From an uncultured Arachnia sp. (lineage in GTDB: Bacteria; Actinomycetota; Actinomycetes; Propionibacteriales; Propionibacteriaceae): a stretch of 64,000 bases of DNA. The stretch covers positions 62,001 through 126,000 of the forward strand of contig CANMNB010000003.1 of the NCBI GenBank assembly GCA_947499145.1, read 5' to 3'. How positions within the stretch are numbered: the first letter of the stretch is position 1; each line of letters starts with the position of its first letter. The notes under the pieces are model-generated. The model ran no database searches, was not told the DNA's origin, and worked only from the letters and a program-made list of their open reading frames with translations. Shown here in pieces: positions 1 to 64,000 of this stretch. The position numbers were made by a program, and so were the translations under genes.

Positions 1-2310
<2,310 letters not shown>

Positions 2311-2339
2311 CGCTCTCCTTGGTCGTTCCGCCCAAATTG

Positions 2340-2353
2340 TCTTGACGTCAAGA
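2340..2353 (-). promoter_or_regulatory. 14-bp palindrome in the aconitase promoter
   Basis: TCTTGACGTCAAGA is an exact palindrome 30 bases upstream of the acnA start codon. On the minus strand a -10-like TATGAT (2355-2360) sits just before it, so the palindrome would cover the transcription start, a classic repressor position. The protein that binds it is not evident from the window. Confidence 0.5.
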
Positions 2354-2386
2354 TATCATACTCGACGCCCTGTTCCCGAGGCCCGC

Positions 2387-3559
2387 TCACGGGGCCGTCG
2401 CCAAGTCTAGGGTGGCCACGCATTCGACGTGATGGGTCATCGGAAACAGATCGAAGGCGCGCAGTTGCCGCAGCACGAAGCCCTCCTGCGCGAAGGTGGC
2501 CAGGTCCCGGGCCAGCGAGGCGGGATCGCACGCCACGTACGAGACCACTCGCGGACGGAGGCCGGCGATCGCGCGGACCACCGCTGCTCCTGCGCCCTTC
2601 CGGGGCGGGTCCAGGACCACCACGTCGACGTCCGGACGGTGGGAGGCGAGATAGCGGTCCACGGGCGCATCCACGAAACGCGCGGCGGGCACGTTGCGAC
2701 GCGCGTCCCGGACGGCCCGTGCGCCCCGTTCCACCCCCAGCACCCCACAACCGGCGTCCGCCAGTGCACCGGCGAAGAGCCCGGCGCCGCAGTACAGGTC
2801 GAGGGCGGATTCGCCCACCCGCGGCTCCACGCCCGCCAGCACCGCGGACGTGAGGGTCTCGGCCGCGGCCGCGTGCACCTGCCAGAAGCCGGCCGCCGAG
2901 ACCTCGTATCGACGCGAGGCGATGTGCTGGCGCACGCGGCTCGGGCCTGACACCAGTTTTCCGTCGACGAGCACGCTCGAGGCATCGTCGGAGATGACGA
3001 CCTCGACCTCCGAGGCCCCCTCACCCCAGTGCCGGAGGTCCTCGACGGAGGGTCCCGGGGCCGCGATCAGGCACCCTTCGGGCGGTAGCGGGACGACGTC
3101 GTGGCTGCGCGCGCCCCGCAGTCCGGGGTCTCCCTCCGGGGTGGTCGCGTAGCGCATCCGGGTTCGCCAGGCGAGGATCGGCTCCACCCGCTCGACCATG
3201 CCGTTCCACTCAAGGCCGGCCAAGCGCTGTAACTGCTCGGCCACCACCGAGCGCTTCAACTCCAACTGGTGGTCCGGAGCGACGTGCTGCCAGTCGCACC
3301 CACCACAGACCGCCGCGATGCGGCAGGGCGGGACGACCCGGTGCGGGGAGGGCTCCAGCACGTCGACCACATGTCCTCGGTCAAACCTCCGGCCCGTCTC
3401 GGTGACCTCGACGGCGACCAGCTCGCCCTCGAGGCCCCCTCGGACGAACACCACCTTGTCGTCGTGCCGTCCGACCACGACACCGCCGTGGGCCACGCGC
3501 TCCAGCCGCATCTCGATCACCACGTCCCCATCCTGCCGTGCGCAGGCCACGACGGCCAT
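2387..3559 (-). CDS. class I SAM-dependent RNA (uracil-5-)methyltransferase, TrmA/RumA family
   Basis: This 390-residue protein would methylate a uracil at C5 in rRNA or tRNA with S-adenosylmethionine. An N-terminal TRAM RNA-binding domain (about residues 15-70) is followed by cysteines in PPC and CGGCDW that resemble the RumA iron-sulfur site. The Rossmann methyltransferase domain has DLYCGAGLFAG for SAM binding and DPPRKG. The catalytic cysteine is in SYVACDPASLARDL near residue 355. ATG 3559 gives the longest product; GTG 3527 or 3524 just after GGATGGGGAC is an alternative start that would drop 11-12 residues. The gene diverges from trkA across 76 bases. Rv2689c holds the same place in M. 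tuberculosis. The exact target base cannot be told from sequence. Confidence 0.88.
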   Translation of the reverse strand: MAVVACARQDGDVVIEMRLERVAHGGVVVGRHDDKVVFVRGGLEGELVAVEVTETGRRFDRGHVVDVLEPSPHRVVPPCRIAAVCGGCDWQHVAPDHQLELKRSVVAEQLQRLAGLEWNGMVERVEPILAWRTRMRYATTPEGDPGLRGARSHDVVPLPPEGCLIAAPGPSVEDLRHWGEGASEVEVVISDDASSVLVDGKLVSGPSRVRQHIASRRYEVSAAGFWQVHAAAAETLTSAVLAGVEPRVGESALDLYCGAGLFAGALADAGCGVLGVERGARAVRDARRNVPAARFVDAPVDRYLASHRPDVDVVVLDPPRKGAGAAVVRAIAGLRPRVVSYVACDPASLARDLATFAQEGFVLRQLRAFDLFPMTHHVECVATLDLATAP

Positions 3560-3635
3560 CCCCGCTCAACTGTCAGGAGGTCCCCGCAGTGCGCTACCGT
3601 CGACCCATCCCTTCGGGAACGGTGAGGAGCGTCTC

Positions 3636-4298
3636 GTGCACTACGTCATCATGGGCTGCGGTCGGGTGGGCTCCATGCTCGCCAGGGGACTGGAGAAGCG
3701 GGGCCACAGCGTCGCGGTGATCGACTCCAACGTCCAGGCGTTCAGGCGGTTGGGAAGTGAGTTCCAGGGCACGACCGTCAAGGGTGTGGGTTTTGACCGC
3801 GAGGTCCTCGAGGCGGCCGGCATTCGCCAGGCCGACGGCTTCGCCGCCGTCTCGAGCGGGGACAACTCGAACATCCTCGCCGCGCGCGTCGTCCGTGAGG
3901 GATACGGGGTCGACAATGTGGTGGCCCGCATCTACGACCAGGGCCGCGCCGCGGTCTACGAGCGTCTCGGCATCCCGACGGTCGCCACCGTTCGGTGGAC
4001 CGTGGGCCAAGTCCTTCGTCGACTACTGCCGGAGGGCAGCGAGCCGGTCTGGCGCGACCCCTCGGGGGAGGTCCGGCTGATCCAGGTCTTCGTCCATGCC
4101 GGTTGGGTCGGGCGCAGGATCCGGGACCTGTCGGCAGCCGCCCGCGCCCCCATCCCGTTCATGAGCCGCATGGGCCGTGGCCTCGTGCCCGACGGTGAGA
4201 CCGTCTACCAGGACGGGGACATCGTTTTCGTGGGCTGTGAGACCGAGCGCACATCCGACATCGAGGCGCTCTTCGGCAGCGCCCCGGCCAAGAACTAG
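3636..4298 (+). CDS. TrkA-family potassium uptake protein (first of two)
   Basis: This 220-residue cytoplasmic regulatory subunit of a Trk/Ktr potassium transporter has an N-terminal RCK/Rossmann NAD-binding domain beginning MHYVIMGCGRVGSMLARGL (GxGxxG) and a C-terminal TrkA_C domain from about residue 140. The GTG at 3636 is chosen because GAGGAG stands just upstream and the nucleotide-binding fold begins there; the frame stays open further upstream but reads nothing family-like. It is 8 bases from the second trkA gene, so the two are one operon and likely form a hetero-assembly, as CeoB/CeoC (Rv2691/Rv2692) do by position. No membrane subunit (TrkH/TrkG) is in the window. Confidence 0.92.
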   Translation: MHYVIMGCGRVGSMLARGLEKRGHSVAVIDSNVQAFRRLGSEFQGTTVKGVGFDREVLEAAGIRQADGFAAVSSGDNSNILAARVVREGYGVDNVVARIYDQGRAAVYERLGIPTVATVRWTVGQVLRRLLPEGSEPVWRDPSGEVRLIQVFVHAGWVGRRIRDLSAAARAPIPFMSRMGRGLVPDGETVYQDGDIVFVGCETERTSDIEALFGSAPAKN

Positions 4299-4306
4299 GA
4301 GCAGTC

Positions 4307-4996
4307 ATGCGAGTAGCCATCGCCGGCGCGGGCAACGTGGGGCGCTCCATCGCCCGGGAACTCATCTCGAACGGCCACCAGGTCCTGCTGATAGACCGGG
4401 ATCCCCTGGCCATCAAGCCCGACTCGGTGCCTGGGGCGGAGTGGTTCCAGGCGGATGCATGTGAGCTGTCAACGCTTGAGGACGCCGAACTCGAGAACTG
4501 CGACGTGGCCATCGCCGCGACCGGGGACGACAAGGCCAATCTCGTCCACTCTCTGCTGGCAAAGACGGAGTTCGGTGTGCCGCGCACGGTGGGGCGCGTG
4601 AACCACCCCGGCAACGAGTGGATGTTCGACGAGGTCTGGGGCGTCGACGTCGCCGTGTCCACCCCGCGCATCATGTCGGCCCTCGTCGAGGAGGCGGTCT
4701 CCACCGGGGACCTGGTGCGACTCCTGACCTTCACCAAGTCGACGACCAACCTGTCCGAGATCCGCCTTCCCGACAACAGCCGCTACGTGGGCCGTGCCGT
4801 CGCGGACCTGGACCTCCCGAGCGGGGCGGTGCTCGTGGCCATCATCCGCGACGGCGCACCCGTGGTCCCCCAGCCCACAGCCTCGCTGGAACCGAGCGAC
4901 GAAATGCTCTTCATCGTCTCCCAGGACGCCGAGTCCCAGTTGGCAGCGATGTTCGAGGCCGAGGACTACGACACCACCGAGAAGTCGGGGTTGTAG
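4307..4996 (+). CDS. TrkA-family potassium uptake protein (second of two)
   Basis: This 229-residue RCK protein starts MRVAIAGAGNVGRSIAREL (GxGxxG NAD-binding loop) with an acidic residue ending strand 2 in LIDRD. A TrkA_C domain follows from about residue 135, with LPSGAVLVAIIRDGAPVVP typical of the ligand-binding fold. It pairs with the preceding TrkA gene as one transcription unit; AGGAGCAG precedes the ATG. Its 3' end overlaps by 31 bases the end of the convergent OB-fold gene, so the two transcripts share 3' sequence. Function: gating of potassium uptake in response to NAD(H) and other ligands. Confidence 0.92.
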   Translation: MRVAIAGAGNVGRSIARELISNGHQVLLIDRDPLAIKPDSVPGAEWFQADACELSTLEDAELENCDVAIAATGDDKANLVHSLLAKTEFGVPRTVGRVNHPGNEWMFDEVWGVDVAVSTPRIMSALVEEAVSTGDLVRLLTFTKSTTNLSEIRLPDNSRYVGRAVADLDLPSGAVLVAIIRDGAPVVPQPTASLEPSDEMLFIVSQDAESQLAAMFEAEDYDTTEKSGL

Positions 4997-5337
4997 ATCA
5001 CCCGCTCGCCCTCGTCGTTGGTGAGGCGACCGTGGACGACGAGGTGGCAGCCGGGAGCGACGCACTCGAGCCGCTTGCGCCCCATCCACACCAGCTTGAC
5101 CTGACCCGTACCGTCCTCGAGGTGCGCCTCGAGCCAGCCGCTCTCGTCGTTCGTCGCGAGGTCCGTCACCGTCCCGTGGAATGTCACCCGCGTCCGCTCG
5201 CGGGAGTCCGCGATGGCCTGGCTGCCGTACTGCCGCACATGGTCCAGGCGTTCCTCGGCCTGTTTCTGCTCGGGAGTCGCGAACCAACGCCGGAGGCGTC
5301 GGGTGAAGGTGCTGCGCTCCTCGGGGTTCTCGGTCAT
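4966..5337 (-). CDS. OB-fold nucleic-acid-binding domain protein
   Basis: A 123-residue protein with a basic, helical N-terminus (TRRLRRWFATPEQKQAEERL) and an OB-fold from about residue 50 (RVTFHGTVTDLAT, HLEDGTGQVKLVWMGR, VVHGRLTNDEGERVIYNP). The OB-fold resembles that of aminoacyl-tRNA synthetases and RecG, suggesting nucleic-acid binding; the precise role is unknown. Its ATG shares bases with the DUF3710 stop (TGATG), which fixes the start and indicates translational coupling. It is the last gene of the DUF3093-dut-DUF3710-OB operon, matching Rv2694c. It overlaps the end of the convergent trkA gene. Confidence 0.85.
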   Translation of the reverse strand: MTENPEERSTFTRRLRRWFATPEQKQAEERLDHVRQYGSQAIADSRERTRVTFHGTVTDLATNDESGWLEAHLEDGTGQVKLVWMGRKRLECVAPGCHLVVHGRLTNDEGERVIYNPDFSVVS

Positions 5338-6041
5338 CACGTCTCGCTCGGGGCTCCGTCCGTTCCCTCGGCCGTGGAGGCTCCGGGGATCGGCGGGATC
5401 GTCATCTTCAGCAGGCTGCCGGGAGCGGCGGGCTCCGTTCCCCGACGCACGACGAGGTTGGCGAAGAACTCGTACAGGGCCAGTTGTGCGTCCTCGTTGT
5501 CGGGCTCCAGCGCTGCCCGGCCCATCACCACGGCGCGCAGCACCCACCCCGGCCCGGAGACGAGCCAGGTGCGGGAGACGTGGACGGCAGGGTTGCCGGC
5601 GGCGTCCTTCACGGGGAGCCTGCGACGCATCTCGGCGCCGAAGGGTCCCGCCACGACCTCGACACGGCCGCCTGCACGCTTGGTGGCCGCAATGATCTCC
5701 TCGCGGATCTCGTCCAGCATCGAACTCTTCGCCGGACCGGCGAAGACCGCCACCTCCATGGCGGAGAATCCGTCGCCGACGAGGATGGCCTGGACGCGCT
5801 CCTTCTGCTGGTCGACCTGGAGCTGCATCGTCATCTTCGGGAAGGGGGTCAGCACCATGCGTCCGAGGTCGATGCGCTTGACGTCGTCGGCGTCGAGGTC
5901 CACCTCGTCGATGTCGAAGGGCCCGTACTCCCGGTCGAACGTGGCATCCATCCCGGCCCATGCCTCGCGGTCGATGCCGTCGGCCTCGTCGGTCCCGGGG
6001 ACCTCCTGGTCCGGAAGCTCGGTGTTGTTGTCGGAGTTCAC
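5337..6041 (-). CDS. DUF3710 domain-containing protein
   Basis: This 234-residue protein of a conserved actinobacterial family has an acidic, disordered N-terminus (about residues 1-50) and then the DUF3710 core, with [20 protein letters not shown] near residue 60 and a long alpha/beta segment to about residue 210. No catalytic motif or membrane segment is seen, and no biochemical function is known to me. Its ATG overlaps the dut stop by four bases (ATGA) and its stop overlaps the next gene, so it is translated in step with dUTPase. Orthologue by position: Rv2696c. Confidence 0.88.
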
Positions 6042-6505
6042 GTCTGGGGGCCTTCCATGTTGACTGTGGTGACGTCGTTCACACCAGTGGAACCATACCC
6101 ACCCTCGCCGCGTTCCGTGGGGTCGAGATTGTCGACCAGCTCGAAGCGGGCCTGCACGACGGGCATGACCACCAACTGCGCGATCCGGTCACCCGTGGAC
6201 AGGGTGATGGGACGGTCGGCATCCTGGTTGATGAGGCAGACCATCACCTCGCCCCGGTAACCGGAGTCGATGATGCCGGGCGAGTTGACGATGCCAAGGC
6301 CGAGGCGCGCCGCCAGACCGGATCGGGGTGTCACGAGACCGACGGTGCCCTCCGGCAGTGAGAGCCGCACTCCGGTGCCCACCAGCGCGCGCTCCCCCGG
6401 CTCGAGCACGACGTCGGACGTGCATCGGAGGTCAGCGCCTGCGTCTCCGGCACGCGCATAAGCCGGCGCGAAGCCCTCGGGGGCCGTGTAGCGGACCTGC
6501 ATCAT
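6038..6505 (-). CDS. dut: deoxyuridine 5'-triphosphate nucleotidohydrolase (dUTPase)
   Basis: dUTPase hydrolyses dUTP to dUMP and pyrophosphate, keeping uracil out of DNA and feeding dTMP synthesis. The 155-residue trimeric-type enzyme shows the usual motifs in order: motif 1 GDAGADLRC, motif 2 [10 protein letters not shown], motif 3 [17 protein letters not shown], motif 4 [11 protein letters not shown] and motif 5 [11 protein letters not shown] near the C-terminus. It begins ATGATG, so the start could be one codon later; both overlap the DUF3093 stop. Thymidine kinase, another dTMP source, is 2.3 kb away. Confidence 0.97.
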
Positions 6506-6948
6506 CGCACCCGCGCCTGCTCGATGGCGGCCGCGAACGCCTGGGGACGTCGGGAGCTGATGAGCCAGTACGGGTGCGGGTCCGCCGCGTCTCGCACGTG
6601 GATCCTCACCGTGGTGGGGATATAGGGACGGGTGAGGAGAAAGGCACGATGGTCGGCTTCAGCCCCCAGCGCCCGACTCGTCGCGGGCTCGTCGAGCGCC
6701 GTCACCTCACCGACGTGCTCGATGCCGATCCGTGCGCGTCCGGCTGCGACGGTCCGACCCGCCACCTCCAGGCGCGTCCGTCCGTAACCGACGAGGAGCA
6801 CCAGCAGCCCCACCAGCAAGCTGAGCGTGATGGCGGTGGCCAACGGCCAGTCGAGGTAGGCGAAGACGGCCACGGCCAAGGATGCAGCCAGGCCGACGAC
6901 AGCCAGCCACCACCACACCGGCACCGTCAAACGCTCGCTGTAGGACAC
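6502..6948 (-). CDS. DUF3093 domain-containing membrane protein
   Basis: This 148-residue protein starts [13 protein letters not shown] and has two hydrophobic helices close together (about residues 8-26 and 32-52), then a cytoplasmic domain ending in a [12 protein letters not shown] segment typical of DUF3093. Function is unknown. The GTG at 6948 is preferred because DUF3093 proteins begin at this YSERL motif and a -10-like TAGATT lies 7 bases upstream; a longer frame to 7020 adds non-conserved sequence that would overlap the divergent gene. It leads the operon with dut, whose start overlaps its stop (ATGA). Corresponds by position to Rv2698. Confidence 0.85.
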
Positions 6949-6955
6949 GCTTCCC

Positions 6956-6961
6956 AATCTA
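6956..6961 (-). promoter_or_regulatory. -10 box of the DUF3093-dut operon, leaderless spacing
   Basis: TAGATT on the minus strand ends 7 bases before the GTG start, so transcription would begin at or next to the start codon. No clear -35 is seen. Confidence 0.45.
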
Positions 6962-7013
6962 GCCTCGTCGCTACGACATAATGAAACGACCAGACCCCAG
7001 GAGGTACGCAGCC

Positions 7014-7325
7014 ATGGCACTGTCCGAGAAGATCGTCTTCAAGATTTACGCCGGCCTCGTCGGCGCCGCCACGACCATTGCGGCCCAGCGGCTCGTCACC
7101 ATGGTGTGGGAGGCCTCCACCGGAGACGTGCCCCCGAACCCGAACGACCCCGAGGTCCCGCTCACCCGCGCCCTGATCTGGGCAGCCGCCAGCGGCCTCG
7201 GCGTTGGCATGAGCCAACTCGCCATGAACCGGTTGATCCAGCAGCGCTGGGCTGCCAACACGGGCCACGAGGCGCCGGGGCAGCTGCACTCCATCCTCGA
7301 CATCGCGCAGCGCAAGGGAAAGTAG
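7014..7325 (+). CDS. DUF4235 domain-containing membrane protein
   Basis: This 103-residue protein has two predicted membrane segments, KIYAGLVGAATTIAAQRLV (about residues 9-27) and RALIWAAASGLGVGMSQLAM (about residues 54-73), joined by a short proline-rich loop. This matches the DUF4235 family of small actinobacterial membrane proteins; function unknown. The ATG at 7014 is chosen over an in-frame ATG at 6981 because AGGAGG lies 9 bases upstream. A -10-like CATAAT at 6977-6982 would give a leader of about 25 bases. It is followed by a strong bidirectional hairpin. Confidence 0.85.
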   Translation: MALSEKIVFKIYAGLVGAATTIAAQRLVTMVWEASTGDVPPNPNDPEVPLTRALIWAAASGLGVGMSQLAMNRLIQQRWAANTGHEAPGQLHSILDIAQRKGK

Positions 7326-7340
7326 CCAACCCAGCACGAG

Positions 7341-7373
7341 GGGCCCGCGCCGGTGACGAACCGGCGCGGGCCC
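7341..7373. terminator. bidirectional hairpin terminator
   Basis: A perfect 14-bp G+C-rich stem (7341-7354 with 7360-7373) and a GACGA loop lie between the ends of the convergent DUF4235 and DUF4193 genes. There is no T-run on either side, as is common in actinobacteria. Confidence 0.75.
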
Positions 7374-7388
7374 AGCATGGGTTGTACG

Positions 7389-7685
7389 TCAGACGCAGTC
7401 GACGCAGTAGGGCTGTCCGTTCTTCTCCTCAGCAAGCTGGGAGCGTGCCTTGACGAGGAAGCACGAGGCGCAGGTGAACTCGTCCGCCTGTCGCGGCAGG
7501 ACGCGGACGGTCAGTTCCTCGTGGGAGAGGTCGGCCCCGGGGAGCTCGAACGACTCCGCGGCCTCGACCTCGTCCTCGTCCACCTTGCCCGAGTTCTTGT
7601 CATTGCGGCGAGTCTTGAGCTCCTCGATGGAGTCCTCGCTCATCTCCTCGTCGGTCTTGCGCGGAGCGTCGTAATCGGTCGCCAT
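7389..7685 (-). CDS. DUF4193 domain-containing protein
   Basis: A 98-residue acidic protein with the family signature MATDYDAPRKTDEE at the start, a charged middle, and a C-terminal zinc-ribbon-like pair CASC and CVDC separated by about 20 residues. It probably binds a metal ion; the cellular role is not known. The ATG at 7685 follows GGGGAGGACC. Rv2699c occupies the same place next to the dut cluster in mycobacteria. Confidence 0.88.
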   Translation of the reverse strand: MATDYDAPRKTDEEMSEDSIEELKTRRNDKNSGKVDEDEVEAAESFELPGADLSHEELTVRVLPRQADEFTCASCFLVKARSQLAEEKNGQPYCVDCV

Positions 7686-7843
7686 GTCAGGTCCTCCCCT
7701 GTGCCCACATCCAAGCGCGTGTCGGCAGCGTCGACACCTAGCGCGCGACAATGATTACCACACAAACGCCGCCACGCAAGTGGCACCCCTCCCGGTGGGC
7801 CCCGCGGAGGCCGTCGGTCCTGCCCCTGCAGGGTTCCCGCTGG

Positions 7844-7849
7844 TAGGTT
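7844..7849 (+). promoter_or_regulatory. -10 box upstream of sepH
   Basis: TAGGTT ends 9 bases before the GTG at 7859, which fits transcription starting at or very near that codon. It also supports the short form of SepH described below. Confidence 0.4.
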
Positions 7850-7858
7850 GACCAGCAA

Positions 7859-8791
7859 GTGAAGGAATCGGGAGAGTCGATGGACAGTTCATTGAGCCCG
7901 CGCGAGATCCAGGCCCGGATCCGGGCCGGGGCATCGATCGCGGACGTGGCCGAGGAGGCTGGTGTGCCCGCGGAGCGGATCGAGGGTTTTGCCCTACCCG
8001 TCGTCGCGGAGCGCGAACACGTCGCCCGGACTGCTCTGGCATCCACCGTCCGTCGCCGTGGTGACGGGACCGTGCACCGTCGGCTGGGAGACCTCATCCG
8101 TGAGCGCCTCCAGGTGCGGGGGGTCGACGCCGACACGGCCACCTGGGACGCCTGGCGGCAGCCGGACCGGACGTGGCGACTGGTCGGGAGGCTTGAGGAA
8201 GGCGCCGCCCCGCGCTGCGCCGAGTTCGTCTTCGACCCCAGGGGCAGGTTCAGTGTCGCTGACAACAGCGATGCTCGCTGGATGATCGGCGAGGAGGTCC
8301 ACGGGGACCCCGACAACGAGAACACCGTCGACTTCGACGACGAGCTGGCGCTGGTCCGCGCCACCCAGCCCCGGCCAGGGCGGGATGACTCCCCACGTCC
8401 CGGCGACGACGTTCCTGCCACCGATGAGCGCTATGACGACACGGAGCACACCTCCCCCCTCGACGACCTCTACGACATGCTGAGTGGGATCAGCGAGGAC
8501 TCGGTGCGGATCTACGTCGGTCTCGAGGACCCGGATCCCGAGGCATCCGATGACGTCCCCGTGCCCTCCGACGACGACCTCGACGATCGTCCGGAGGACC
8601 GTGAATCCGTTGCCCCCTCGTCGATCCCTGGGACGGAGGAGGCACCGTCCGCTGCGCCGGAGCCGACGCAGGAGCCTCTCGTGGAGGACCCGCACGAGGA
8701 GTTGCCCCCCGCACGCAAGCCGGGGAAGAAGCGCCGCGCGCAGGTCCCGAGCTGGGACGAGATCATGTTCGGCGGCCCCACGGGCAAGTAA
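7859..8791 (+). CDS. sepH: septation protein SepH (DUF3071), short N-terminus
   Basis: SepH is an actinobacterial cell-division protein that binds FtsZ and promotes its assembly. This 310-residue copy shows the conserved helix-turn-helix part (LSPREIQARIRAG, then VAEEAGVPAERIEGFALPV) and the WDAWRQPDRTWRLVGRL segment, then a long acidic, disordered C-terminal half. Family members known to me carry some 45-55 further residues before the SPREIQARI motif. Here an in-frame TAG at 7844 prevents any upstream extension, so the N-terminal strand-rich part of DUF3071 is absent. GTG 7859 or ATG 7880 (after GGGAGAG) could be the start. It converges with tdk with no gap. Confidence 0.87.
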   Translation: MKESGESMDSSLSPREIQARIRAGASIADVAEEAGVPAERIEGFALPVVAEREHVARTALASTVRRRGDGTVHRRLGDLIRERLQVRGVDADTATWDAWRQPDRTWRLVGRLEEGAAPRCAEFVFDPRGRFSVADNSDARWMIGEEVHGDPDNENTVDFDDELALVRATQPRPGRDDSPRPGDDVPATDERYDDTEHTSPLDDLYDMLSGISEDSVRIYVGLEDPDPEASDDVPVPSDDDLDDRPEDRESVAPSSIPGTEEAPSAAPEPTQEPLVEDPHEELPPARKPGKKRRAQVPSWDEIMFGGPTGK

Positions 8792-60012: not shown

Positions 60013-60702
60013 ATGCGTCGTTCCTCCTCAGCTCCACGACGAGCGGCGCCGGCCTCCCAACCCACGAGCAGGCGGGCACCCCTCCTGGTGGGGATCACCG
60101 TCACGGTGCTCACAGCTGTCGTGGTGACCGGTCTCGTCTTCGGCCCCAGACAACCCCTCGATCAGTCCGACCGCCCCATCATCGCGGTGGCCACCTCCAG
60201 CAGGACTCCCTCCCCATCACCTGCGCCATCGACCAGGGTCCTCCTCGACGACACCACCTTCCCAGCACCCGCGGGCTGGACCGTCTCCACCAGCAGTCTC
60301 CCGGACTCGGGGGACACGGTGGCACACCTGTCCCACGCCAGCTCTGGAACCAGGCTGCAGGCGGCGACACTGGCGCAACCCCGGGAGCCCGTCGCCGCGT
60401 GCGAGGCCCTGGCCACCGGCTTCTCCGAACGCTTCACCGACGTGACGTGGAACCTCGGATTGCCGGTCGCTGTGGACGCGTCCCTCGGCGGCGCTGCCAC
60501 CTGCGGCTTCCGCGGCAGCACCCCCCTGGGCGACCGGGTGGAGGTGACCTTCACCCTCGTCCAGCGCACCGTGGACGGGCACTCCCTCCTGTGGCGCAGC
60601 GTGGTCGACGACGAAGGCGCCTCCGGGTCATCCGTGGCCGAGGCATCGGCGATGGCGTGCAGCGCGAGTCGTGGGTTCGGCGTCCCACTCCCCCTCTGTT
60701 AG
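60013..60702 (+). CDS. hypothetical secreted or membrane-anchored protein
   Basis: A 229-residue protein I do not recognise. Basic N-terminus (RRSSSAPRRAAP), one membrane helix (about residues 24-45), a Ser/Pro-rich linker, and an extracellular domain of about 150 residues with four cysteines (VAACEAL, AATCGF, AMACSAS and the last residue Cys) that could form two disulfides. PAGWTVSTSSLPDS and the spacing resemble small DUF-type sensor or sortase-like domains only weakly. It starts 27 bases after the tRNA, with CAGGAGGAAGCC before the ATG, and converges with pfk. Confidence 0.7.
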   Translation: MRRSSSAPRRAAPASQPTSRRAPLLVGITVTVLTAVVVTGLVFGPRQPLDQSDRPIIAVATSSRTPSPSPAPSTRVLLDDTTFPAPAGWTVSTSSLPDSGDTVAHLSHASSGTRLQAATLAQPREPVAACEALATGFSERFTDVTWNLGLPVAVDASLGGAATCGFRGSTPLGDRVEVTFTLVQRTVDGHSLLWRSVVDDEGASGSSVAEASAMACSASRGFGVPLPLC

Positions 60703-60714
60703 CGACGGCGGGCT

Positions 60715-62928
60715 TCAGCCCCGGGGCCGGCTGCTGAGCTGGGCGAAGATCTCCCGCAGACCGAGCCACCACTGCTCGACGGGCCGCTGTTGGTCCCAGT
60801 CCATCCCGTCGACCACGTCTCGCAGCGGGGCGAACAGCGTCGGCGACTCGGAGGACGCCGCCACGTAGGCCGTGGCGCCAGCCTCCAGTTGCCTGTCGAG
60901 CTCGAGGACGGCTGAGTACGCGAGCCTGGTGGCGTTGATCCGGTCGAAGGGCGTGGGCACCCCGCCTTGCTGCACGTGCCCCACCACGGCCTGGCGCACC
61001 GAGAACTGTCCGTGGCCCTCGGCCTCGAAGAGCCTCCGCAGGACGTCCGTGGTGTAGTACTCGCTGGCGTCCTCCCCAATGACGGCGAGGTAGAAGTTGC
61101 GGCCACCTGCAAACGCATCGACCATGGCTGCGACGTCATCGGCAAGGCCTGCGAGCGTGATGCCCTCCTCGGGCAGGTACACCCGTTCGGCGCCCCCCGC
61201 GATCCCCCCCATCAGCGGCAGGAACCCGCAGCCGCGGCCCATCGTCTCCACCACGAACGCCCGCCGGCTCGCAGACGCCGACATCCGGACCATGTCGATG
61301 GAGTCGACGACCGTGTTGAGCGCGGTGTCCGCCCCGACCGCCATCGGCCAGGACGGGAGATTGTTGTCGATGCTCGCCGGCAGCAGCGCAACGGGAATGT
61401 CGAAGGCCGGGTACCGACGTCGTTCAGCTTCGAGGATCGCCACCGTTCGATAGGCGTGGTAGCCGCCCGCCACCAGCAAGGCGTCGACATCGTGGTCCTC
61501 CAACTGGCGGGCCATGGCGTAGAGGTCCGTCTCACTCGGCACGTAGCGGCGGGTACCGAGGTCGGCACCGCCGGTATGCGCCATGCCCTCGGCATCGGCC
61601 CAGCTGACAGGATCGATGTGTCCGCTGACCAATCCCGGCACGCCGCCGCGGACGGCCAGCATCTGGTGCCCGCGGTCGATGCCCGCACGCACCGCCACGC
61701 GAGCGATCTGGTTCATGCCGGGAGCCAACGCACCGGCGTGCATGACCGCGATGCGTCTGGGCCTCACCCCCTCGAGGACGGACGGTCTGGCCTCCGACAG
61801 GACGCGGTAGATGTCGATCATCTGCTCGAACCCCCGACCGCGCGCGGCGACCGCGTGGTCGAAGTCCCCCTGCGAGATGTGCTGGGCGACGGCGCGAGTG
61901 TCAGCGACTGCCTCCAACAGGGGTCGGGTGACGACTTGGTCCCGGTGCATGCCGACCAGGAGCGGCTCGGAGTCCGCGTCGCCGTCGAGCACCTGGCGCA
62001 CCGCTTCAACGCCGGTGACGGTAGCCATCCACCGGTCGTAGGCGCTCGGCTTCCCGCCTCGTTGGACGTGTCCGAGGATCGTGATCCTGGCATCCTCGCC
62101 GGTGCGCTCCAGCAGGGCCTGGTGGACGCGCTCGACCGTGATGGGTTCCCCACCTCGGTCGCGAGCGCCCTCGGCCACCACCAGGATGGAGTCGCGGCGC
62201 CCGGCCTCGACACCACGCGCCAAGACCTCCACCATCCGATCCTCCCAGCCGTCTCGTGGCGGGGACTCCGGCAGGAAGGTGTAGTCGGCCCCGCCGGCGA
62301 TGGCGCTCATCAGCGCCAAGTAGCCGCAGTGGCGTCCCATCACCTCGACGATGAAGGTGCGCTGGTGGGACTCGGCGGTCGAGGAGATGGCGTCGATGGC
62401 CTCCGTGATCCGGTGGAGGGCGGAGTCCGTCCCGATCGTCATGTCCGTGCCCACCATGTCGTTGTCGATCGAGCCGACGAGACCGACGACGCGGAGCGTG
62501 GGGTGCGCTGCCGCCTGCTGGGGTGTCACCTCCCCGGACGCGACGCAGTCAGCAAGGAGATCGGCCCAGGCGAGGCGCAGGGCTCGAGTGCCCGTCAGGG
62601 ATCCGTCGCCGCCGATGACGATGAGCCGGTCGATCCCACGGGCGACGAGATTGGCCACCGCTCGTCGCTGGCCGTCGCGGCTCCGGAACGCGTCAGAGCG
62701 GGCGGTGCCGATGACCGTGCCGCCCTTGTTGAGGATGCCGGATACGTCGTCCCACCCCAGGCGCCGGATGTGGTCGCCCCCATCAACGGCGCCCTGCCAC
62801 CCCTCATGGATGGCGTACACCTCCGCGTCGCGATGGAGCGCCGACCGGGTGATGGCCCTCACGGCCGCGTTCATGCCGGGGGCATCGCCCCCGGACGTCA
62901 GGACACCTATACGGGGCGAGTCGGCCAC
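60715..62928 (-). CDS. 6-phosphofructokinase, double-length (eukaryote-like tandem) type
   Basis: A 737-residue protein of two fused PFK-1 domains; ordinary bacterial PFK has about 320-400 residues. N-half: GVLTSGGDAPGMNAAVRA, IGGDGSLTG (Gly, so ATP rather than PPi expected), catalytic Asp155 in GSIDND, EVMGRHCGYLAL and GHVQRGG. C-half: VMHAGALAPGMN, GGYHAY in place of GGDG, ASIDNNLPSW (Asp to Asn), GADTALNT and GHVQQGGVPTPFDR. Loss of catalytic features in the second half and the sequence of both halves mirror animal and fungal PFK-1, where the C-half became allosteric. It converts fructose 6-phosphate to fructose 1,6-bisphosphate. It follows DUF3052 by 1 base. Confidence 0.93.
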   Translation of the reverse strand: MADSPRIGVLTSGGDAPGMNAAVRAITRSALHRDAEVYAIHEGWQGAVDGGDHIRRLGWDDVSGILNKGGTVIGTARSDAFRSRDGQRRAVANLVARGIDRLIVIGGDGSLTGTRALRLAWADLLADCVASGEVTPQQAAAHPTLRVVGLVGSIDNDMVGTDMTIGTDSALHRITEAIDAISSTAESHQRTFIVEVMGRHCGYLALMSAIAGGADYTFLPESPPRDGWEDRMVEVLARGVEAGRRDSILVVAEGARDRGGEPITVERVHQALLERTGEDARITILGHVQRGGKPSAYDRWMATVTGVEAVRQVLDGDADSEPLLVGMHRDQVVTRPLLEAVADTRAVAQHISQGDFDHAVAARGRGFEQMIDIYRVLSEARPSVLEGVRPRRIAVMHAGALAPGMNQIARVAVRAGIDRGHQMLAVRGGVPGLVSGHIDPVSWADAEGMAHTGGADLGTRRYVPSETDLYAMARQLEDHDVDALLVAGGYHAYRTVAILEAERRRYPAFDIPVALLPASIDNNLPSWPMAVGADTALNTVVDSIDMVRMSASASRRAFVVETMGRGCGFLPLMGGIAGGAERVYLPEEGITLAGLADDVAAMVDAFAGGRNFYLAVIGEDASEYYTTDVLRRLFEAEGHGQFSVRQAVVGHVQQGGVPTPFDRINATRLAYSAVLELDRQLEAGATAYVAASSESPTLFAPLRDVVDGMDWDQQRPVEQWWLGLREIFAQLSSRPRG

Positions 62929-62929
62929 G

Positions 62930-63364
62930 TCAGCGACGCGAGCCCTTGGGGCGGACCACGCGGTGTGCCTGCCAGTCGGCCGACACGTTCACAGTCGTGG
63001 TCAGCGAGAGGCCGGCGGTGGCTGCCCCCTCGGCCAGGTCGCTGGGCTCGATGAACCCGTCCCGGCCCACCTTGGGGGTCATGAGCCAGATCCAGCCGTC
63101 GTTGGACAGGTCGGGCAGAGCGTCCACGAGCCCGTCGGCGACGTCGCCGTCATCGTCGCGCCACCAGAGGAGCACTACGTCGACCGCCTCGATCGCATCC
63201 TCGTCGAGCATCTCGCCGTCGATGAGGTCCATGATCTCGTCGCGGAGGTCGGAGTCCACGTCCTCGTCCCAGCCGATCTCCTGGACCACCATTCCGGTCT
63301 CCAGGGACAACAGCTCCGCCCCACCATGGCTGTCGCCAGCCCTCGAGTTCGTACCTTTCGCCAT
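62930..63364 (-). CDS. DUF3052 domain-containing protein
   Basis: A 144-residue acidic protein of an actinobacterial family. Signature parts: GMVVQEIGWDEDVD near residue 25, DLIDGEMLDEDAIEAVDVVL, WWRDDDGDVADGLVDALP and WLMTPKVGRDGFIEPSDL. Function unknown. It is next to aceE on the same strand, the arrangement of Rv2239c/Rv2241 in mycobacteria. ATG 63364 begins MAKGTNSRAG; a GTG or ATG four codons earlier is possible. pfk starts 1 base after it ends, so the two genes are likely co-transcribed. Confidence 0.85.
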   Translation of the reverse strand: MAKGTNSRAGDSHGGAELLSLETGMVVQEIGWDEDVDSDLRDEIMDLIDGEMLDEDAIEAVDVVLLWWRDDDGDVADGLVDALPDLSNDGWIWLMTPKVGRDGFIEPSDLAEGAATAGLSLTTTVNVSADWQAHRVVRPKGSRR

Positions 63365-63421
63365 GTCACGTACCACGAGGCCTAGCCTGCCAGATGGGGC
63401 GGTTGCCGGGGAACCCGGGGC

Positions 63422-64000
63422 CTAGGCGTCTCCGCCCGCGTTCCCCGAGGTCCCTGCCGTCACGTCGTCGATGCGGTACTTCTCCGCTGCCTGCGTGGCC
63501 CATTCACGGGGCACCTCACCGGCCACGGCGAGGCGTTGCAGCACCGACACCGCGATGGAAGGGCCGTCGATGTTGAAGTATCGCCGGGCGGCCGCGCGCG
63601 TGTCCGAGAAGCCGAAGCCGTCGGCTCCCAGGGTGGTGTAGTCCCGCGGGACCCACTGCCGGATCTGGTCGGGCACGGCGCGCATGTAGTCGGACACGGC
63701 CACGATCGGACCCGCGGACTCCCCCAGCTGCTGCTCCACCCACGTGGTGGGGTGGTCGCCGAAGGGGTCGCGGTACTTCGCCTCGTCGAGCTCCAGGCCC
63801 TCGCGGCGCAGCTCACCCCACGAGGTGACGCTGTACACGTCGGCGACCACGCCGTAGTCCGCCTTGAGCAGTTCCTGGGCCTCGAGGGCCCACGGGACCG
63901 CGACGCCGGCCGCCAGGATGGTCGCGCGCCGGGCATCCTCTCCGACGCCGTCGAACGAACCGCGCTTCAGCAGGTACATGCCCTTGAGGATGCCGTCGAC
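63422..64000 (-). CDS. aceE: pyruvate dehydrogenase E1 component (homodimeric), C-terminal part
   Basis: The last 192 residues of the homodimeric E1 of the pyruvate dehydrogenase complex; the rest (family length about 900) lies beyond the window. Visible parts: GILKGMYLLKRGSF, ILAAGVAVPWALEAQELL, VYSVTSWGELRREGLELDE, and the conserved end GADGFGFSDTRAAARRYFN. It decarboxylates pyruvate with thiamine diphosphate and acetylates the E2 lipoyl domain. It precedes DUF3052 by 57 bases on the same strand. Confidence 0.95.
   Translation of the reverse strand, partial: VDGILKGMYLLKRGSFDGVGEDARRATILAAGVAVPWALEAQELLKADYGVVADVYSVTSWGELRREGLELDEAKYRDPFGDHPTTWVEQQLGESAGPIVAVSDYMRAVPDQIRQWVPRDYTTLGADGFGFSDTRAAARRYFNIDGPSIAVSVLQRLAVAGEVPREWATQAAEKYRIDDVTAGTSGNAGGDA

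Follow-up and report, generated by a model that had tools for sequence, protein, structure and literature searches.

The fusion of two 6-phosphofructokinase (PFK) domains in one chain is usually taught as a eukaryotic invention. Three papers, in their available parts, present it as a feature of eukaryotic PFK and leave bacterial double PFKs unmentioned (PMC12203962, PMC2990764, PMC12889660), and the duplicated PFK sequences in the available part of another come from animals and fungi (PMC11609450). The first of these credits Bapteste et al. 2003 (Gene) with finding transfer to and from bacteria (PMC12203962). Our literature search by titles and abstract starts recognised no description of a bacterial PFK with two domains; Bapteste et al. 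2003 may mention such genes. Here we examine such a gene, located at 60715..62928 on the minus strand of a 64,000-nucleotide stretch (the window) of contig CANMNB010000003.1 from an uncultured Arachnia sp. of the Propionibacteriaceae.

We propose, with a probability of about 0.72, that this gene codes for an adenosine triphosphate (ATP)-dependent two-domain PFK stemming from the same fusion as animal and fungal PFK-1, that its N-half is catalytic and its C-half an allosteric sugar-phosphate site, and that it is inherited vertically within its genus. The kind of protein is already known, and the existence of a curated NCBIfam model for it (TIGR02478) limits the surprise; its breadth among bacteria and a test of the shared fusion did not turn up in our literature search.

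A two-domain PFK of the PFK-1 type

The open reading frame begins with GTG and runs for 737 codons with no internal stop, and PF00365 matches its product in two stretches (596 bits), as expected from the original prediction of two PFK domains in a single 737-residue chain. The motifs named in that prediction are all present in the translation, with GGDGS at residue 106, SIDND at 153, VEVMGRHCG at 194, GHVQRGG at 286, GGYHA at 488, SIDNN at 519 and GHVQQGG at 650. The gene and its parts are as follows.

60715..62928, minus strand: two-domain ATP-type 6-phosphofructokinase, 737 amino acids (open reading frame, profile, PDB and AlphaFold evidence)
61768..62928, minus strand: N-half, residues 1-387, predicted catalytic (residue comparison with E. 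coli)
62458..62613, minus strand: GGDGS (residues 106-110) to SIDND (153-157), the fixed 42-residue spacing common to bacterial and eukaryotic two-domain PFKs
60718..61767, minus strand: C-half, residues 388-737, predicted regulatory (residue comparison)
61453..61467, minus strand: GGYHA, residues 488-492, the ruined C-half ATP/Mg motif (N-half counterpart GGDGS)
61360..61374, minus strand: SIDNN, residues 519-523, the C-half motif that corresponds to catalytic TIDND; D521, equivalent to Asp127, is kept and N523, equivalent to Asp129, is a replacement
61231..61263, minus strand: R556 and M563-G564-R565-G566, predicted C-half sugar-phosphate pocket; R565 is Gly in 5/5 eukaryotic chains
60967..61074, minus strand: E619, R645 and H651-V-Q-Q654, remainder of the predicted C-half sugar-phosphate pocket; Gln654 is the Arg252 equivalent, as in eukaryotes

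The eukaryote-type NCBIfam model TIGR02478 (6PF1K_euk) covers residues 6-734 with 909 bits, well past its cut-off of 708.4; prokaryotic PFK models of NCBIfam also match the protein, in several stretches. The top PDB matches, all end to end, are human PFKP, PFKM and PFKL and rabbit PFKM (659-672 bits), followed by the yeast subunits (547-599 bits) and then by single-domain bacterial PfkA (at most 239 bits). Because these full-length scores lie so far above those of single-domain PfkA, the likeness to PFK-1 is not a matter of chance. The AlphaFold model (a monomer without ligands, 27 sequences in the alignment) has a predicted local distance difference test score of 89.3 and a predicted template modelling (TM) score of 0.90, and superposes over the whole chain on human PFK-1 (8w2g_A) with a TM-score of 0.96 both ways and a root mean square deviation of 1.8; the best single-domain PfkA reaches 0.40 by query length. 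Profile, PDB matches and fold, together with the constraint test given below, thus agree with the earlier assignment to the animal/fungal PFK-1 type rather than to PfkA or a pyrophosphate (PPi)-dependent PFK. Identity as a single-domain PfkA (about 320 residues, one domain) was rejected on the length of 737 residues and the two domains.

One shared duplication-fusion

For phylogenetic analysis the proteins were split after residue 387, and N- and C-halves were entered as separate rows. Bacterial sequences were picked for spread, 37 of 92 and 35 of 109 in the quick half-trees, 17 in the careful half-tree and 27 in the concatenated tree. Eukaryotes were represented by two human and three yeast chains, of which the careful tree included four; several of the chains had a deviating letter make-up. 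Four single-domain rows entered the 37-sequence quick tree, the others being missed by the motif filter. Locus L153 was lost at a motif filter, and the trees were built without the source genome's own single-domain paralogue (L002) and without L110-L112.

In the careful half-tree every N-half, whether from bacteria or eukaryotes, falls in one clade and every C-half in a second (100/100 each), with the six single-domain outgroup rows not on one side of a branch. The larger quick half-trees give the N-half and C-half clades again, with support of 98-100. The half-by-half phylogeny suggested in the original prediction therefore joins the halves of the window protein to the eukaryotic N- and C-halves and not to ordinary PfkA paralogues; an ordinary PfkA paralogue is ruled out by this tree together with the PDB match scores. 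Forcing separate bacterial and eukaryotic fusions, with the bacterial halves together, costs 186 log units and is rejected by the approximately unbiased (AU) test (p-AU 8e-60). The spacing between GGDGS and [ST]IDND, which had been pointed out as an insert, is 42 residues in 114/114 two-domain N-halves (109 bacterial, 5 eukaryotic), compared with 19-20 in six single-domain PfkAs. In the C-half the corresponding spacing is 26 residues in 111/114; the remaining three, with 70, 86 or no pattern match, were taken as pattern errors. Since the halves cluster by position, independent fusions are rejected and the 42-residue spacing is common to all 114 sequences, bacterial and eukaryotic two-domain PFK-1 descend from one duplication-fusion. 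Convergence, i.e. independent fusions in bacteria and eukaryotes, has a negligible chance of being right, given halves that group by position and not by host (100/100 twice), the rejected constraint, and N- and C-half spacings identical in both.

Predicted catalysis in the N-half

Three groups appear in the trees: bacterial clades A and B, and group E of animals and yeasts. Clade B holds the Propionibacteriaceae (the window's group), Actinomycetaceae, Dermatophilaceae, Cellulomonadaceae and sewage proteobacteria, and includes our coded families f36 and f62; clade A holds families f58, f71, f73, f81 and f89 of other actinobacterial classes and rare members of f7. Active-site residues were counted in E. 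coli numbering over unthinned rows, 90 of clade B and 19 of clade A. The residue roles are those of the general PFK literature; Asp127 and Arg162 are named in the available part of PMC12203962.

The window N-half keeps 17/20 checked E. coli active-site positions, the changes being Y41 to W, F73 to S and T125 to S, and the last of these is also Ser in the eukaryotic chains. D103, D127, D129, R162, M169, G170, R171, E222, H249 and R252 are found in the N-half of 90/90 clade-B and 19/19 clade-A rows. The donor pair is of the ATP type, with G104 in all rows and G124 in 89/90 rows of clade B and 19/19 of clade A. A PPi-dependent enzyme, for which we take Asp/Lys at positions 104/124 to be the rule, was rejected on the Gly/Gly pair of the window protein. 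From the intact residues we infer that the N-half would convert fructose 6-phosphate (F6P) and ATP to fructose 1,6-bisphosphate (F1,6BP).

A putative sugar-phosphate site in the C-half

The C-half presents a different picture. The window protein has GGYHA instead of GGDGS and a gap at R77, and keeps R72 as the eukaryotic chains do. Throughout clade B, position 103 is mostly W, F, Y, H or L, R77 falls in a gap in 90/90 rows, S105 is Ala in 89/90, and D129N and R252Q are fixed, the same as in eukaryotic chains. D127, R162, M169, G170, E222 and R243 are kept in 90/90 rows, H249 in 89/90 and R171 in 88/90. When clade B is thinned to 30 sequences at 75% identity, 8/9 columns of the F6P pocket reach 95% conservation or more, compared with 24% of C-half columns overall (hypergeometric p 6e-5) and 1/6 ATP-site columns (R72 and G124 not in the set). 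Read from the residues, this is the pattern of a binding site retained after catalysis was lost. With the F6P pocket kept and most of the ATP/Mg site lost, the C-half probably serves in sugar-phosphate sensing, and the pocket would be an allosteric site lying between the C-halves of adjacent chains. The suggestion of a eukaryote-like C-half thus stands for the ATP/Mg motif, lost as in eukaryotes, but not for D521 and R565, which are kept here and replaced in 5/5 eukaryotic chains.

The corresponding C-half positions in human PFKM, including Ser530 and Gly575, are the site for fructose 2,6-bisphosphate (F2,6BP). Ser530 corresponds to D521 and Gly575 to R565 in the window, and Ser and Gly occupy these positions in all five eukaryotic chains. 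A gene for PFK-2 (6PF2K, PF01591) was found in 0/18 carrier genomes, in a search whose control matched 3/14 genomes with 0/14 over the cut-off and no true positive. F2,6BP is an unlikely ligand because no PFK-2 gene was found in 18/18 carriers, which favors the doubt already voiced about this effector. The ligand would most likely be F6P or F1,6BP, the latter two acting as a glycolytic feed-forward signal; naming one of these two is a guess at about even odds.

Several observations weigh against this overall reading of the two-domain PFK. R72, a residue of the ATP and catalytic site that lies outside both column sets, is kept in the C-half of 90/90 clade-B rows, and G11 in 58/90. Conservation of the C-half columns for the PfkA effector site (3/6) is not significant (p 0.15). 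In clade A the C-half keeps 5/9 pocket columns (p 0.05), with D127 replaced in 19/19 rows and R171 in 12/19. We take R735 of human PFKM to be a further F2,6BP contact, and its equivalent in the window is Gln714. Folding or contact between subunits could instead account for the conserved pocket. The PFK-2 control, as noted, gave no true positive. Finally, because the genome has two further PFK genes (see below), the two-domain PFK need not be its main glycolytic enzyme.

The clade-A C-half keeps R162, M169, G170, E222 and R243, and R171 in 7/19 rows; without D127 and with R171 in so few, its ligand may differ from that of clade B, and a sugar ligand is less certain for clade A. Of the PfkA effector site, R21, R25, K/R154 and E187 are mostly kept in the clade-B C-half, to a greater extent than in the eukaryotic chains, and this remnant may form a second regulatory site. 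Catalytic activity of both halves, or a C-half that is by itself a second kinase, would fit a clade-B C-half in which R72, D127, R171 and the greater part of the F6P pocket are retained, but the GGDGS Mg-ATP motif is gone (GGYHA), R77 is a gap, and N and Q replace D129 and R252, which makes an active C-half very improbable.

Distribution among bacteria

In the genus of the source organism 23/25 genomes, its own included, exceed the TIGR02478 cut-off. The other two are both 60% complete, one with a match broken over frames and one without a two-domain match. None of 16 genomes from other families of the order exceeds the cut-off. The class, phylum and family samples are partial draws that overlap: two-domain PFKs occur in 7/394 genomes of the class sample, in 21/346 of the phylum sample (18 of these 21 outside the window's class), and rarely in a further family of the same class (f7, 3/151, search centre counted).

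A scan of named genomes, seeded by exact peptides of the window protein so that remote carriers are missed, gave 141 confirmed loci, of which the best 80 were analysed; all of these 80 span at least 712 of the 737 residues. Carriers among the Actinomycetota include Tessaracoccus, Arachnia, Propioniciclava, Raineyella, Austwickia, Mobilicoccus, Actinotalea, Actinomycetaceae and others, and those among the Pseudomonadota are Ca. Accumulibacter, Ca. Competibacter, Ca. Contendobacter and one Propionivibrio metagenome-assembled genome (MAG). Around an Accumulibacter genome the carriers are 3/274 class members and 3/101 family members, centre counted, and this sporadic occurrence suggests that the gene probably moved horizontally there. 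One Accumulibacter protein shares 51.5% identity with human PFKP, above the 45.1% between human PFKP and yeast PFK1; the window protein shares 44.7% with human PFKP. For one Accumulibacter, the glycolytic gene given in the available part of one paper is a PPi-type pfp (PMC12766714), and the available part of another counts 6-phosphofructokinase with the genes putatively transferred in sludge of this kind (PMC4502571). A two-domain PFK as the sole PFK of Accumulibacter fails as a general rule: 1/9 Accumulibacter-titled genomes has only two tandem halves, and 8/9 have one further match.

Planctomycetota were dropped as carriers. The sole match (L043/G431, 1/249, the centre itself) lies on a contig filed under Phycisphaerales (isolate GAO1), and the locus (1-8701) is probably misbinned because its oxaloacetate decarboxylase beta neighbour is 90% identical to that of Competibacter and its PFK is Competibacter-like; its PFK rows remain in the quick half-tree set, the active-site residue counts and alignment A1. 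Among 27 plasmid records matching at E 1e-50, none extends over 80% of the query. The Competibacteraceae MAG UBA10638 has two different two-domain PFKs on two contigs (L040, L044). Two further rows, L131 and L150, contain one in-frame stop each (TAG in G504, TGA in G1043), from assembly error, decay or an edge effect.

Gene neighborhood and inheritance within the genus

Two genes lie upstream of the PFK gene in the window, giving the order aceE-type gene, DUF3052 gene, PFK.

62930..63376, minus strand: DUF3052 protein, directly upstream of the PFK gene (open reading frame and Pfam)
63422..63979, minus strand: 3' portion of a gene encoding a transketolase C-terminal domain, by inference aceE (pyruvate dehydrogenase E1), probably extending past the window

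A single base separates the DUF3052 stop from the PFK start codon, and the two genes form a probable operon. Among the best 80 of the 141 loci, DUF3052 precedes pfk in 23/23 Tessaracoccus/Arachnia-type loci (L015-L035, L084, L092), and the aceE-type gene is present in 21/23 of these, about 2.6 kb further away in L030. DUF3052 is near the PFK in only 1 (L050) of the other 57 loci. In part of the loci synteny is visible only within a flank of about 1.5 kb. The G+C content at third codon positions (GC3) of the PFK gene is 0.875, inside the range of nine other window genes (0.83-0.92), so that the gene is not compositionally foreign.

These data point to vertical inheritance of the two-domain PFK within the source genus, beside DUF3052 and the aceE-type gene. 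A recent foreign gene in the source genome was discarded as unsupported, with 23/25 genus genomes carrying the gene, the GC3 of its neighbours, and DUF3052 in 23/23 loci. Of the two possibilities originally offered, transfer or an old bacterial form, the GC3 comparison with neighbours speaks against transfer into this genome and the old form fits the source organism; deeper down horizontal movement enters, and as to the donor the tests leave eukaryote and bacterium both standing.

Downstream, the plus strand at 60013-60702 encodes a protein of 229 residues that has no Pfam match and is hydrophobic over a stretch close to the N-terminus; its gene and the PFK gene converge with 12 bases between them, and similar sequences sit downstream of PFK in many Tessaracoccus/Arachnia loci. 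In Actinomyces marseillensis (L094, 4959-8961) pgi (phosphoglucose isomerase) comes after the two-domain PFK, and in Competibacter (L049, 1628-7211) the PFK is directly behind oxaloacetate decarboxylase alpha- and beta-type genes. The source genome's second PFK (L002, C12:135670-136629) is single-domain and matches NF002872 of the ATP-dependent subfamily with 343 bits (cut-off 253); the third (L004, C3:31601-32632) is of the PPi type and matches PRK06555 with 646 bits (cut-off 395). Three kinds of PFK thus coexist in one small genome.

Direction of transfer

Since both Actinomycetota and Pseudomonadota are found in clade B, the two-domain PFK appears to have moved horizontally deeper in bacterial history. 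Rooting was tried by halves, by AU tests and with a concatenated alignment in which the single-domain outgroup was placed under both halves. In the concatenated tree support is 99 for B, 99 for E and 92 for A, and the window protein lies outside the animal and fungal group, as represented by the five eukaryotic chains.

The fusion may have arisen in bacteria, actinobacteria being the likeliest stock, with an ancestor of animals and fungi acquiring the gene ready-made. The bacterial carriers make up two deep clades, and rooting by the C-halves puts clade A outside B+E (89/70 in the careful tree). In addition, W54 and D187 of the N-half and N129 of the C-half are common to clade B (W54 and N129 in 90/90 rows, D187 in 88/90) and the five eukaryotic chains, and absent in 19/19 clade-A rows. 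Against this, support is weak, the N-half and C-half trees disagree, and the concatenated set, again with five eukaryotic chains, accommodates every root: B+E appears in the quick tree with support 0, A+B has p 0.67 and A+E p 0.57. We consider a bacterial origin quite possible, if somewhat short of an even chance.

Alternatively, a eukaryote could have given a finished two-domain PFK-1 to a bacterium, most likely an actinobacterium, from which it spread among bacteria. This fits the N-half trees, which set all bacteria apart from animals and yeasts (99/97 in the careful tree, 85 in a quick tree), the careful tree not uniting animals and yeasts as one N-half clade (81/9). In the concatenated set the bacteria as one clade (p 0.67) score 4.4 better than the free quick search, and putting clade B next to either animals or fungi by themselves loses 16 log units but is not rejected (p 0.09 and 0.10). 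But the C-half trees weakly nest the eukaryotes in bacterial diversity, with A outside eukaryotes plus B (87 and 89 also in quick trees), an N-half clade of B and eukaryotes is not rejected (p 0.61, 5.9 better than the quick tree), the carriers form two deep clades of many families, and GC3 is native. We regard a eukaryotic donor as a tentative alternative, with the odds against it.

A fuller scenario with bacterial ancestry can be sketched, in which the fusion arose in bacteria with its C-half already a sugar-phosphate sensor and was then acquired by the eukaryotic ancestor. Control by F2,6BP would then be a later eukaryotic refit of an F6P/F1,6BP sensor, through loss of the Asp and Arg kept by clade B. 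It is offered as a speculation, and we would sooner bet against it than on it.

As many actinobacteria and some sewage bacteria have the same ancestral fusion, the PFK-1 fusion may not be a eukaryotic invention. Bacteria with this fusion make the order of fusion, loss of the second active site and F2,6BP control testable, and those with no detectable PFK-2 may reveal a regulatory half that predates its best-known ligand or does without it. The enzyme is also relevant to glycolysis in phosphorus- and glycogen-accumulating sewage bacteria.

Comparison with known systems

In Accumulibacter, pfkA was reported in 2024 to be unexpectedly patchy, with a pfkA homolog (OG0002868) in Ca. Accumulibacter UW9 and others derived from Competibacteraceae (PMC11131965). 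Locus L056 (Accumulibacter UW9-POB) carries a two-domain PFK, both halves of which pair with Ca. Contendobacter odensis (96 and 98), which fits that transfer. OG0002868 would thus be the two-domain PFK of L056, a two-domain or eukaryote type being unmentioned in the available part of that text.

The PPi-dependent PFK, as in the genome's own copy (C3:31601), belongs to the PFK-A superfamily like the window protein, but has GGDDT and PKTIDND. Each half of the window protein corresponds to one PfkA-like unit of E. coli or Bacillus, which have one such unit per chain instead of two; compared with them the N-half spacing is 22-23 residues longer and the C-half is without the ATP/Mg motif, and the best single-domain PfkA scores 239 bits, as opposed to 672 for human PFK-1. 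The closest systems are animal PFK-1 (human PFKP, PFKM and PFKL) and the yeast PFK alpha and beta subunits. They have the same domain order and spacings, the same N-half catalytic residues, the same loss of the C-half ATP/Mg motif, a full-length fold match and a common fusion. They differ from the window protein in having Ser and Gly in place of D521 and R565, and at position 187 of the C-half, where Glu in the window protein contrasts with V, L, Q, D and D in the five eukaryotic chains.

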